From assembly GCA_902517885.1 (NCBI GenBank), contig CABYDZ010000002.1, forward strand, positions 135,805 to 198,812: a DNA stretch of 63,008 bases, read 5' to 3'. Below, piece after piece: positions 9,397 to 50,932 of the stretch. This stretch comes from an uncultured Pelagibacteraceae bacterium (GTDB lineage: Bacteria > Pseudomonadota > Alphaproteobacteria > Pelagibacterales > AG-422-B15). Within the stretch, counting starts at the first letter, position 1, and each line of letters begins with the position of its first letter. The translations under genes were made by a program, and so were the position numbers. Under the pieces are notes generated by a model. It searched no databases, was not told the DNA's origin, and saw only the letters and a program-made list of their open reading frames with translations.

Positions 9397-9753
9397 TTGC
9401 CAGATAATTGGATGACTGCTTTACTTGTAAAGAGGAAAGTCCGGGCTCCACAAGACAATGGTGCCGGGTAATACCCGGCGGGGGCGACCCCAGGGAAAGT
9501 GCCGCAGAAAATAAACCGCCTTAATTGAAATTTATAAGGTAAGGGTGAAAAGGTGAGGTAAGAGCTCACCGCTTTTTTGGTAACAAAAAAGGCATGGTAA
9601 ACCCCGCCAGGAGCAAGATCAAATAGAGTTACAATAGTTAGTCTTGACTGTAACTGGGTTGATCGCATGATTCGTGTGGTAACACTCGAACTAGATGAAT
9701 AGTCATAGATTTTTATTAAATCACAGAACCCGGCTTATAGATTATCTGGCAAT
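9397..9753 (+). ncRNA. rnpB: RNase P RNA (bacterial type A)
   Basis: The conserved region GAGGAAAGTCCGGGCTCCAC (9431-9450) and the 3' element ACAGAACCCGGCTTA (9723-9737) are both present. P1 closes the molecule: TTGCCAGATAAT at 9397-9408 pairs perfectly with ATTATCTGGCAA at 9741-9752. Length and internal GGCGGGGGCGACCCC-type elements fit a type A ribozyme, which removes 5' leaders from tRNA precursors together with the RnpA protein. No U-rich intrinsic terminator follows. Confidence 0.97.
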
Positions 9754-37734: not shown

Positions 37735-37975
37735 AGTGGGAGACTTCTGTTGCCCGGCGTCTCCCAAACCGCGCTTGCCTAATTATATTAAGCAGCGAGC
37801 GCTAATTTATTGTTAGCATTTAAAAGTTAGCCCGATAACGGCGGTACAATGCCGAGAGAAAAACTTACCTTTAAACATTCGTCGATCCTATATCACCCCC
37901 TAAGAAATGGTGGAGGTGCCGGGTACCGCCCCCGGGTCCGTAATGGGTATTATGTAAGCCGTTTATCTCTATAGC
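37735..37975 (-). ncRNA. ssrA: circularly permuted (two-piece) tmRNA
   Basis: Read on the minus strand, the acceptor piece comes first (about 37975-37908), with CCCGGGGGCGGTACCCGG and the 3' end CACCTCCACCA at 37918-37908. A 7-base spacer (37907-37901) follows, then the coding piece begins GGGGGTGATATAGGATCGACG at 37900. GGGGGTG pairs with CACCTCC, including the G3-U pair read by alanyl-tRNA synthetase. The tag frame at 37817-37788 encodes ANNKLALAA then TAA. GGGAGAC/GTCTCCC (37738-37744 and 37759-37765) form a late hairpin. tmRNA rescues stalled ribosomes and tags the product for proteolysis. The outer ends are approximate. Confidence 0.95.
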
Positions 37976-38071
37976 TAGGATATCCCCAGCAATCTGAATA
38001 TAGTTTGATATTGAATCTTTTTAAAGAGGCTATTCTTATTATAATATGCCATTAATATTTGATTCACAAAA

Positions 38072-44717: not shown

Positions 44718-46486
44718 ATGGTTAATATTCAGATGACAGGCGCTCAAATGGTTTTAAAAGCATTTGAAGACCATCAAGTAGATACAATTTTTGGTTACCC
44801 TGGCGGGGCAGTTTTACCTATATATGATGAGTTAGCCAAGGAAAGAGATACCAACCAGCCTATTAGGCACTATTTAGTTAGGCACGAACAAGGCGCATCT
44901 CATTCTGCAGAGGGATATGCTAGATCAAGTGGTAAAGTTGGGGTCATGCTTGTTACGTCTGGTCCTGGGGTTACTAACTCGGTTACCGGTTTAACTGATG
45001 CCATGATGGACTCTATACCAATTGTTTGCATAAGCGGGCAAGTACCCACCCACCTAATTGGCACTGATGCTTTTCAAGAATGTGATGCTGTAGGCATCAC
45101 AAGACCATGTACAAAACATAATTGGCTTGTTAAAGATATCAATGATCTCTCTAGAATTCTGCACGAAGCTTTTTACGTTGCTTCAAGTGGAAGGCCAGGA
45201 CCAGTTTTAGTTGATATACCAAAAGATATTCAATTTCAGACAGGAACATATATAGGACCTGAGACTGTAAAACATAAATCGTATAGACCGAAGTTAAAGG
45301 CAAATATTGATCAAATTGATGATGCACTAAAATTAATTGCAGAAGCTGAAAAACCTATTTTTTATACTGGTGGAGGAGTGATTAATTCTGGTAATGCTGC
45401 TGTTCAATTACTAAGAGAATTCGTTCGGCTAACCGGTTTTCCTATTACATCTACGTTACAGGGATTAGGAGCCTATCCTGGTGATGACTCACAGTTTATT
45501 GGCATGTTAGGCATGCACGGCACTTACGAAGCTAATATGGCTATGAACGAATGTGACTTAATGATTAACATTGGAGCCAGGTTTGACGATAGAATAACTG
45601 GTAAAATAGATGATTTTTCTCCAAACTCGAAAAAAATCCATATTGATATTGATCCTTCATCAATCAACAAGATTGTTAAAGTTGATGTGCCATTAATAGG
45701 TGATGTTGCTCATGTACTAGAAGACTCAATAAAATTATGGAAATCTAAAGTTTATAAAATTAATAAGACTCCTCTTAAGGAGTGGTGGAAAACTATTGAT
45801 AAATGGAAAGAAAAAGATTCACTCAAATTCGCTAGTGACAAAAACACTATAAAACCACAATACGCGATCCAGAGACTTTATGAGTTAACAAAGGAAAAAG
45901 ATGTATTTGTTACAACTGAAGTTGGTCAGCATCAAATGTGGGCTGCACAATATTATAAATTTTCAAAGCCTAATAGATGGATAACATCGGGCGGCTTAGG
46001 AACAATGGGTTTTGGCTTACCTGCCGCGATTGGAGCACAGGTAGCTCATCCTGATAAACTTGTTATTGATATAGCGGGTGAAGCTTCTATTTTGATGTGT
46101 ATTCAAGAAATGTCGACAGCAATTCAACATAAGCTTCCTGTTAAAATATTTATTATCAATAATCAATACATGGGTATGGTTAGACAGTGGCAAGAGTTAT
46201 TGCATGATCAGCGTTACTCCCATAGTTATACTGATGCATTGCCAGATTTTGTTAAACTGGCTGAAGCTTATGGCGCTAAGGGTATAAGAGTACAAAAACC
46301 TAATGAGTTAGATAAAGCGATAAATGAAATGATCGAATATGATGGTCCAGTAATATTTGATTGCGTTGTTGAACAGAATGAAAATGTTTATCCAATGATT
46401 CCATCTGGTAAGGCCCATAATGAAATGCTACTTGGGGACGAAACAAAAAAAGAAGAAATTTCAGATGAAGGAAAAGTTTTAGTTTA

Positions 46487-46487
<1 letters not shown>
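44718..46487 (+). CDS. ilvB: acetolactate synthase large subunit
   Basis: 589 residues, TPP-dependent. GYPGGAVLPIYDEL at the N-terminus, the catalytic Glu in RHEQGASHSAEGYARSSGK, the FAD-binding middle domain with GARFDDRITGK, and the TPP motif region DIAGEASILMCIQEMSTA, where the usual Asp of GD-x-S is Glu. It condenses pyruvate (or pyruvate plus 2-oxobutyrate) as the first common step to Val, Leu and Ile. Overlaps ilvN by one base. Confidence 0.97.
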
Positions 46488-48023
<1,536 letters not shown>

Positions 48024-48160
48024 TTATTTTTTAGTTTTCAGACATAAAAGATACGATATAGCCCAATATTTGTTCAATTTTGAGTAATTTATTGCGAATT
48101 TCTGAATATTCATATATTTATCCTTTATCTTTGAAAACTAACTAAAGTGCATATTTTGCA

Positions 48161-48262
48161 ATGAAAAAAATATATTTAACTAATTTCTGCATATCATTAG
48201 GGGAATGCACTCTTCTATCTCTCTTGCTGTTAAAACTGCTTAGCAGCCCCCGGGCGACTTAA
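48161..48262 (+). CDS. leuL: leucine-rich leader peptide of leuA (attenuator peptide)
   Basis: A 33-codon ORF upstream of leuA. Codons 18-27 read L-L-S-L-L-L-L-K-L-L, eight Leu in ten codons, and the run uses all six Leu codons (CTT, CTA, CTC, TTG, CTG, TTA). The stop at 48260-48262 lies inside the following hairpin. This is the layout of ribosome-mediated attenuation: scarce leucyl-tRNA stalls the ribosome and should change downstream folding. No strong ribosome site is visible before its ATG. leuL is used as a functional label. Confidence 0.85.
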   Translation: MKKIYLTNFCISLGECTLLSLLLLKLLSSPRAT

Positions 48263-48278
48263 AACTTGCCTCAGGGGG
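48236..48278 (+). terminator. attenuator hairpins of the leuA leader
   Basis: CTGC-TTA-GCAG (48236-48246) forms a small hairpin over the last leader codons. Next, CCCCCGGGC (48247-48255) can pair with GCCTCAGGGGG (48268-48278), with a CA bulge and one G-U pair. The GC-rich stem ends 45 bases before the leuA ATG and is followed by ATACTTAATTTT, only a moderate U tract. Shared bases with the leader codons allow alternative folds. Pairing was done by eye. Confidence 0.6.
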
Positions 48279-48323
48279 ATACTTAATTTTAACACAATTT
48301 ATATATAACCAAGGGATTTAAAG

Positions 48324-50932
<2,609 letters not shown>

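Follow-up and report, generated by a model that had tools for sequence, protein, structure and literature searches.

The textbook control of proteobacterial amino-acid operons is transcription attenuation. In the enterobacterial leu operon attenuator (leuL, Rfam Leu_leader), a leader peptide with tandem Leu codons and a hairpin come before the leucine genes. In the translational attenuation of erm and cat genes, for which the signal is an antibiotic, a ribosome stalled on the leader frees the Shine-Dalgarno of the next gene. Vitreschak is said to have reported ilv leader attenuators of Alphaproteobacteria in 2004. The C. crescentus ilv leaders are described as transcription attenuation in the accessible part of PMC4117421. 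The actinobacterial LEU element has a run of Leu codons said to pair with the leuA Shine-Dalgarno, according to the part of Seliverstov et al. 2005 (PMC1262725) available to us, in which the authors cite evidence that mutations in the Leu codons do not matter and favour a protein. In the literature searched, parts of which were accessible only as excerpts, we found no description of an alphaproteobacterial leuA leader, and an earlier description is possible; the word leuA is absent from the accessible main text of Corbino 2005 and Meyer 2009.

Here we describe a leader before leuA in a 63,008-nt stretch of DNA from an uncultured Pelagibacteraceae bacterium, which we call the window (positions are counted from its first letter). 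It is a real, conserved leucine leader, and we hold with moderate confidence that it responds to leucine, most likely by controlling the translation of leuA. In Table 1 we report the features of the locus. An earlier reading of the sequence alone had singled out a 33-codon ORF with eight Leu in ten codons, using every synonym, and this is what we find. The ORF translates as MKKIYLTNFCISLGECTLLSLLLLKLLSSPRAT*, its leucine run reads CTT CTA TCT CTC TTG CTG TTA AAA CTG CTT and so contains all six Leu synonyms, and a scan of the six frames finds at least 8 Leu per 10 codons at this single place in the 63 kb. The suggestion that using all six codons would let the leader sense every isoacceptor is unsupported. 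The chance of all six codons among eight Leu is about 0.02 under the window's codon usage, and such usage occurs in 6 of 40 leaders of the window's family and in 0 of 100 other leaders; since it is present in 6/40 of the family it is not a conserved feature, and we reject its significance as weak and not conserved. The same reading placed a small hairpin and a GC-rich stem after the ORF. Both are there, but the stem starts inside the ORF and has the stop codon in its loop. The weak U tract after the stem (GGGGG-ATACTTAATTTT) and the absence of a clear ribosome site for the leader, also pointed out before, are both visible in the sequence, and the downstream gene named as leuA indeed matches the 2-isopropylmalate synthase model.

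Upstream of leuA are the genes for the acetolactate synthase subunits and ilvC, and the order ilvC-leuA-mreB-mreC is found in 14 of the 14 family loci examined. The promoter-like element of Table 1 is not listed by a consensus scan, which demands spacers of 16-18 nt; TTGAAA-N15-TATAAT, with equal spacing, is visible in relatives such as L014 and L034. Elsewhere in the window there is an alphaproteobacterial tmRNA on the minus strand (37735-38029, where the permuted tmRNA family matched too) and an RNase P RNA at 9400-9753.

Table 1. Features of the leuA leader locus, in window coordinates.
Feature	Position	Strand	Description	Basis
Promoter-like element	48092..48118	+	TTGCGA 48092-48097, 15-nt spacer, TATATT 48113-48118	putative, from reading
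Helix P1	48146..48211	+	AGTGCAT 48146-48152 with ATGCACT 48205-48211	
Leader ORF	48161..48262	+	33 codons, stop TAA 48260-48262	ORF listing, family comparison
Leucine codon run	48212..48241	+	8 Leu in 10 codons; final codon CTT 48239-48241	
Candidate Shine-Dalgarno-sequestering helix	48220..48316	+	TCTCTTG 48220-48226 with CAAGGGA 48310-48316; GTTA 48229-48232 with TAAC 48306-48309	
Helix P0	48229..48293	+	GTTAAAA 48229-48235 with TTTTAAC 48287-48293; closes both hairpins	
Small hairpin P2	48236..48246	+	CTGC-TTA-GCAG	fold
GC-rich hairpin P3	48247..48278	+	arms 48247-48257/48266-48278; leader stop codon in loop	
Block ACTTAATTTTAACA	48281..48294	+	almost invariant in the window's family; may serve as P0's 3' strand or as a weak U tract	
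leuA Shine-Dalgarno AAGGG	48311..48315	+	8 nt 5' of start codon	
leuA, 2-isopropylmalate synthase	48324..49874	+	TIGR00973, 705 bits	
mreB	49892..50932	+	17 nt 3' of leuA; mreC next	

As the window's family we take 40 loci (L003-L042) with LeuA 81-99% identical, the nearest relatives being Pelagibacterales or Pelagibacteraceae. One locus (L004) has no upstream DNA, which leaves 39 relatives to compare and, with the window, 40 leaders. In the alignment of relatives that the sequence-only reading had proposed, 39/39 keep the hairpin, the run of Leu codons and the CTTA motif, which is CTGA in L042. All 38 relatives that can be judged (the contig of L007 is cut) read without interruption from a start codon at least 20 codons ahead of the last Leu. 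The last ten codons hold 5 to 8 Leu in 40/40 leaders, and the final Leu codon is CTT in 39/40 (CTG in L042). The start is more variable: of the 15 representatives, 7 (the window, L008, L010, L013, L014, L018 and L027) have ATG or GTG exactly 26 codons ahead of the last Leu, and the other 8 start elsewhere. By eye, the 330 nt upstream of leuA in the sister family f2 (L125-L165, with L162 unusable) contain no such leader. What many f2 leuA genes do share, again by eye, is TTATTTTGCAATCT..AGATTGTATTAT, which resembles a promoter; the inverted repeat lying between its two hexamers may be an operator.

The leader is also structured. Folding the region, likewise a suggestion of the earlier reading, gives 48225-48300 a better fold than any of 200 shuffles (z -3.6). 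Helix P1, which joins the leader start region to the segment preceding the Leu run, is supported by a swap test on the 15 representatives: own pairs give -12.35 and swapped pairs -9.31 kcal/mol, 1 of 20000 swaps does as well, and two other pairings used as controls give z of +2.3 and +0.6. In the window P1 is extended by AATGA (48160-48164, containing the leader start codon) with TCATT (48194-48198). For P0, 87.5% of the cells in the 39 alignment rows are paired, the innermost pair is unpaired in 23/39, and one pair is compensated, with both sides changed (AU to UA, 5 rows). The four pairs of P2 are unchanged in 37 to 39 of the 39 rows (L034 is broken and L008 has one mismatch). In P3, alignment columns 137/162 are UA in 28 rows, CG in 10 and AU in 1. 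Covariation in the family alignment is thin overall, with 2 pairs changed on both sides versus 1.7 in shuffles. The candidate helix sequestering the Shine-Dalgarno in the window has 11 bp and a 2-nt bulge (CT), and the duplex including flanking pairs reaches -11.5 kcal/mol. The block at 48281-48294, 3' of P3, reads ACTTAATTT[T/A]AACA across the window's family with almost no variation.

A similar leader is found well beyond the window's family. Amongst 40 further alphaproteobacterial leuA loci (L043-L082), 23 have a leader of the form ..CTTANNNGCCCC(TGA)..GGGG, of which a pattern search found 22, while L062, which differs by one base, was recognised by eye; 17 are without it. The class consensus is ..CTK-CGA-CTT-ANN-NGC-CCC-TGA, with the stop codon within a CCCC/GGGG hairpin that mostly has no U tract. 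A covariance model (R1), built from 26 sequences of which 8 belong to the window's family, matches 122 of 385 alphaproteobacterial genomes, the window's own included. We fetched 110 of the 124 R1 matches, and a leuA-like frame follows in 107; at the remaining three places, a small cupin gene comes after L210 and L255, and neither leuA nor cupin is found at L272. In the phylum, a second model built without sequences of the SAR11 order (R2) matches 71 genomes out of 398, and 70 of those lie within the class. The sole match outside it (L299) has no leuA or cupin match. From the class we fetched 19 R2 places of one family, of which 18 lie before leuA and one (L292) before the cupin gene. Ahead of the small cupin-domain gene, in L210, L255 and L292, the leader occurs in a CCTCTGAG variant. 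A Paracoccus denitrificans plasmid (L276, 641-915) carries a variant leader ending GLLLLTLR*, read by eye, in which TCCTTCTTC is complementary to GAAGAAGGA before leuA; the covariance model finds no match there. It does match in Phaeobacter inhibens and Methylobacterium bullatum, and it gives nothing at the plasmid copy of leuA in Rhizobium tropici.

R2 has zero matches in the 7 f2 loci tested. It matches 8 of 13 loci of the window's family weakly (E 0.023-1.3) and gives no match to the window at E up to 5, nor any in the window's genome (G000). For a common origin of the window's leader and the class leader the argument is therefore their shared anatomy, which makes it likely without proving it. 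The window carries the CTTANNNGCCCC motif with the stop codon inside the next hairpin. We counted this anatomy in 107 thinned leaders, 100 of them from families other than the window's. The final Leu codon is CTT in 103 and CTA in 4, a count that is partly built in because the pattern used for placing most of them required CTT or CTA followed by A; by eye, the six leuA-linked loci failing the pattern have CTT or CTA there as well. The stop codon lies four codons past the last Leu in 94/107, and Pro is the last residue in those 94. From -18 to -4 relative to the last Leu codon, a span of five codons, Leu occurs on average 2.19 times in frame; the other two frames give 0.32 and 0.14.

Sealing of the leuA Shine-Dalgarno by the Leu codons predicts that the two segments of one leader fit each other better than segments swapped between leaders. 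For the 107 leaders, the Leu-codon segment and the Shine-Dalgarno region give -12.73 kcal/mol for own pairs and -10.23 for swapped pairs (sd 0.27), that is, z -9.4 with 0 of 20000 swaps as good. Control windows give z of +0.3, -2.3 and -1.7, and the segment adjoining the Leu run on its 5' side gives -3.9. The signal stays without the window's family (n=100, z -8.6), is concordant with an earlier test on 23 loci, and is replicated in 22 leaders outside the set of 107, 21 of them from one family (z -4.6, 0/20000; controls +0.8 and -1.3). In the cupin-gene leaders L210 and L255, 8 uninterrupted pairs form with the Shine-Dalgarno of the cupin gene, and L292 pairs with loops. A map by position (100 leaders) shows the signal at -14 and from -7 to +3 around the CTT; it also peaks at -57 and -56, which is unexplained. 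In part of the class the CGACTTANNN of the motif pairs with the nucleotides that separate hairpin and Shine-Dalgarno (z -6.6, 105/107 usable), a pairing nearly absent in the window (0.4 kcal/mol), L038 (0.0) and L014 (-0.8). Within the window's family the test is not significant in the 15 representatives (z -1.2, 2217/20000); for the 40 unthinned rows it gives 701/20000. The register of the Shine-Dalgarno pairing slides between clades of this family, and L035 has a longer helix than the window's.

We then asked what a stalled ribosome would do to this pairing, masking its footprint and comparing the cost of opening the Shine-Dalgarno region. With the modelled stall at the last Leu codon, the mean opening cost changes by -2.41 kcal/mol; it drops by more than 1 in 69/107 leaders, fails to do so in 38/107, and is raised in 5. 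An upstream mask gives a mean drop of 1.21 kcal/mol (more than 1 in 40/107), and a ribosome at the stop codon a mean drop of 1.89 (more than 1 in 65/107). By these figures the stalled leader is clearly separated from the free one, and the stalled ribosome only modestly from the terminating one. In 37 distinct leaders of the window's family, many of them close kin, a stall four codons before the CTT gives a drop of more than 1 kcal/mol in 25 and a rise of more than 1 in 3; the drop occurs in 18/37 with the stall at the CTT and in 2/37 with the upstream mask. In the window, placing the A site from -24 to -3 relative to the CTT reduces the cost of 4.3 kcal/mol to 2.5-2.8. For the longer leader a stall at the last CTT or one codon on brings no gain (4.1 and 4.6), though for a shorter leader the stall at the last CTT lowers the cost from 4.39 to 2.96. 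In L038-L042 the Shine-Dalgarno is open regardless (0.9-2.1), with little sequestration, and in L012 the cost is worse at 8 of 16 stall positions.

Leu codons that are complementary to the leuA Shine-Dalgarno and coevolve with it point to translational attenuation, which is most likely the mechanism at the level of the class and probably that of the window too. The sequence-only reading had proposed ribosome-mediated attenuation and had warned of a possible departure from the classical mechanism. The conserved leader peptide with its Leu codons is supported (39/39). The classical mechanism is not, as we find no antiterminator, the U tract is weak, and the stop codon of the leader falls in the loop of the supposed terminator. 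The coevolution of Leu codons and Shine-Dalgarno bears out the caution at class level. Transcription attenuation could still take another form: P3 would terminate together with the U-rich stretch, and a ribosome halted at the last Leu codons would cover the 5' arm directly, with no need of an antiterminator. In its favour, P3 is a strong hairpin whose arms coevolve (z -3.3 in 15 family representatives), the T-rich block 3' of it hardly varies, P0 joins that block to the Leu codons, with its one compensated pair, and a ribosome with the CTT in its A site would reach the CCCC arm (a ribosome covers ~12 nt downstream of the codon, according to the accessible part of PMC4833913). We consider this form rather unlikely, but a serious rival in the window's family. 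The first 8 nt 3' of P3 are ATACTTAA, with 3 T, a terminator scan of 46400-50200 found none, and in 97 of the 107 thinned class leaders no 8-nt stretch of the 12 nt 3' of the hairpin holds more than 4 T. No partner coevolves as an antiterminator: the upstream leader against the two P3 arms gives z of +0.6 and +0.4 in the 15 family representatives (14283 and 13217 of 20000), and folds of the window region contain none. In this scheme a ribosome halted at the first Leu codons would leave the hairpin uncovered, the reverse of what is needed, and mreB and mreC, if lacking a promoter of their own, would be lost along with leuA. A GGGG upstream in the window, considered as an antiterminator against the CCCC arm, was rejected, as it is not kept in relatives and neither arm of the stem has a coevolving partner. 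Rfam at the gathering threshold finds no leader family in the window or in 14 relatives, and at E up to 10 in 47900-48500 it gives only five sub-threshold matches to unrelated families and no leader family.

Two other explanations put the weight elsewhere than on base pairing with the Shine-Dalgarno. The leader could be an RNA element of LEU type recognised by a protein or another factor, with the leader peptide secondary, as has been argued for Actinobacteria in the accessible part of PMC1262725. The strong nucleotide conservation of CTTANNNGCCCC and CCCC/GGGG would suit such a factor, but the Leu excess in one frame only and the near-constant distance from the last Leu to the stop codon make it improbable. 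It is more improbable still that the conserved C-terminal L-x-L-x-x-P, just ahead of the stop codon, is an arrest peptide that slows termination, possibly sensing leucine directly: the near-constant terminal Pro would fit, but its codon doubles as an arm of the CCCC stem, and the window's family runs two or three codons beyond it.

For translational attenuation, we propose that the leader ORF would be translated by a ribosome which, when charged tRNA-Leu is short, would stall at the Leu codons. The stalled ribosome would cover the segment otherwise paired with the leuA Shine-Dalgarno, and leuA would be translated. With leucine plentiful, the ribosome would translate as far as the stop codon in the CCCC/GGGG hairpin, then leave, and the freed Leu codons would pair with the Shine-Dalgarno region and shut leuA. 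We infer that the window works as its more distant relatives would. As mreB starts 17 nt past leuA, control at the level of translation would spare it, which would explain how a gene directly before mreB can be regulated with the cell-shape genes untouched. More tentatively, and as a possibility rather than an expectation, this could be one translational attenuation device for leuA shared by Alphaproteobacteria (down to the streamlined marine Pelagibacterales) and Actinobacteria. In it a conserved CUU beside the CCCC hairpin would act as the switch between Leu codons that seal the ribosome-binding site of the gene and Leu codons that leave it open, and the device could move as a module to other genes, such as the small cupin gene in one alphaproteobacterial family. 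If the proposal is right, translational attenuation by amino-acid starvation would be a major mode in Alphaproteobacteria, and a widespread class leader without an Rfam match would use its sensing codons also as an anti-Shine-Dalgarno. It would also provide a link to the actinobacterial LEU element.

That LEU element is the closest known relative, and the proposed architecture is alike. Going by the accessible part of its description, both have a leader ORF with a Leu run ahead of leuA, in both the Leu codons and the leuA Shine-Dalgarno would make up the base stem, and other attenuator parts are said to be missing from the LEU element, as they largely seem to be here. The pairing itself coevolves across the class; in the window it is present, but it is not significant in the window's own family. 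The LEU element belongs to Actinobacteria and is described, in the same part, with a pseudoknot, whereas our leader belongs to another phylum and has a CCCC/GGGG hairpin holding the stop codon. Streptomyces LeuL1, given as MRFGLLLLSCRGEGL in the accessible part of PMC8079986, recalls the ..LLLSCP* of L061. With the leuL attenuator our leader shares tandem Leu codons in a leader peptide and a hairpin before leucine genes; it is unlike leuL in that we find no antiterminator, the U tract is weak or absent, and there is no Rfam leader match. The ilv leaders of Alphaproteobacteria are of the same class and also encode branched-chain amino acid leader peptides, but they precede a different operon and, as far as the accessible descriptions go, act by transcription attenuation. 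The likeness to erm and cat is in the proposed mechanism, a stalled ribosome that would free the Shine-Dalgarno, with uncharged tRNA-Leu as the signal in place of an antibiotic.
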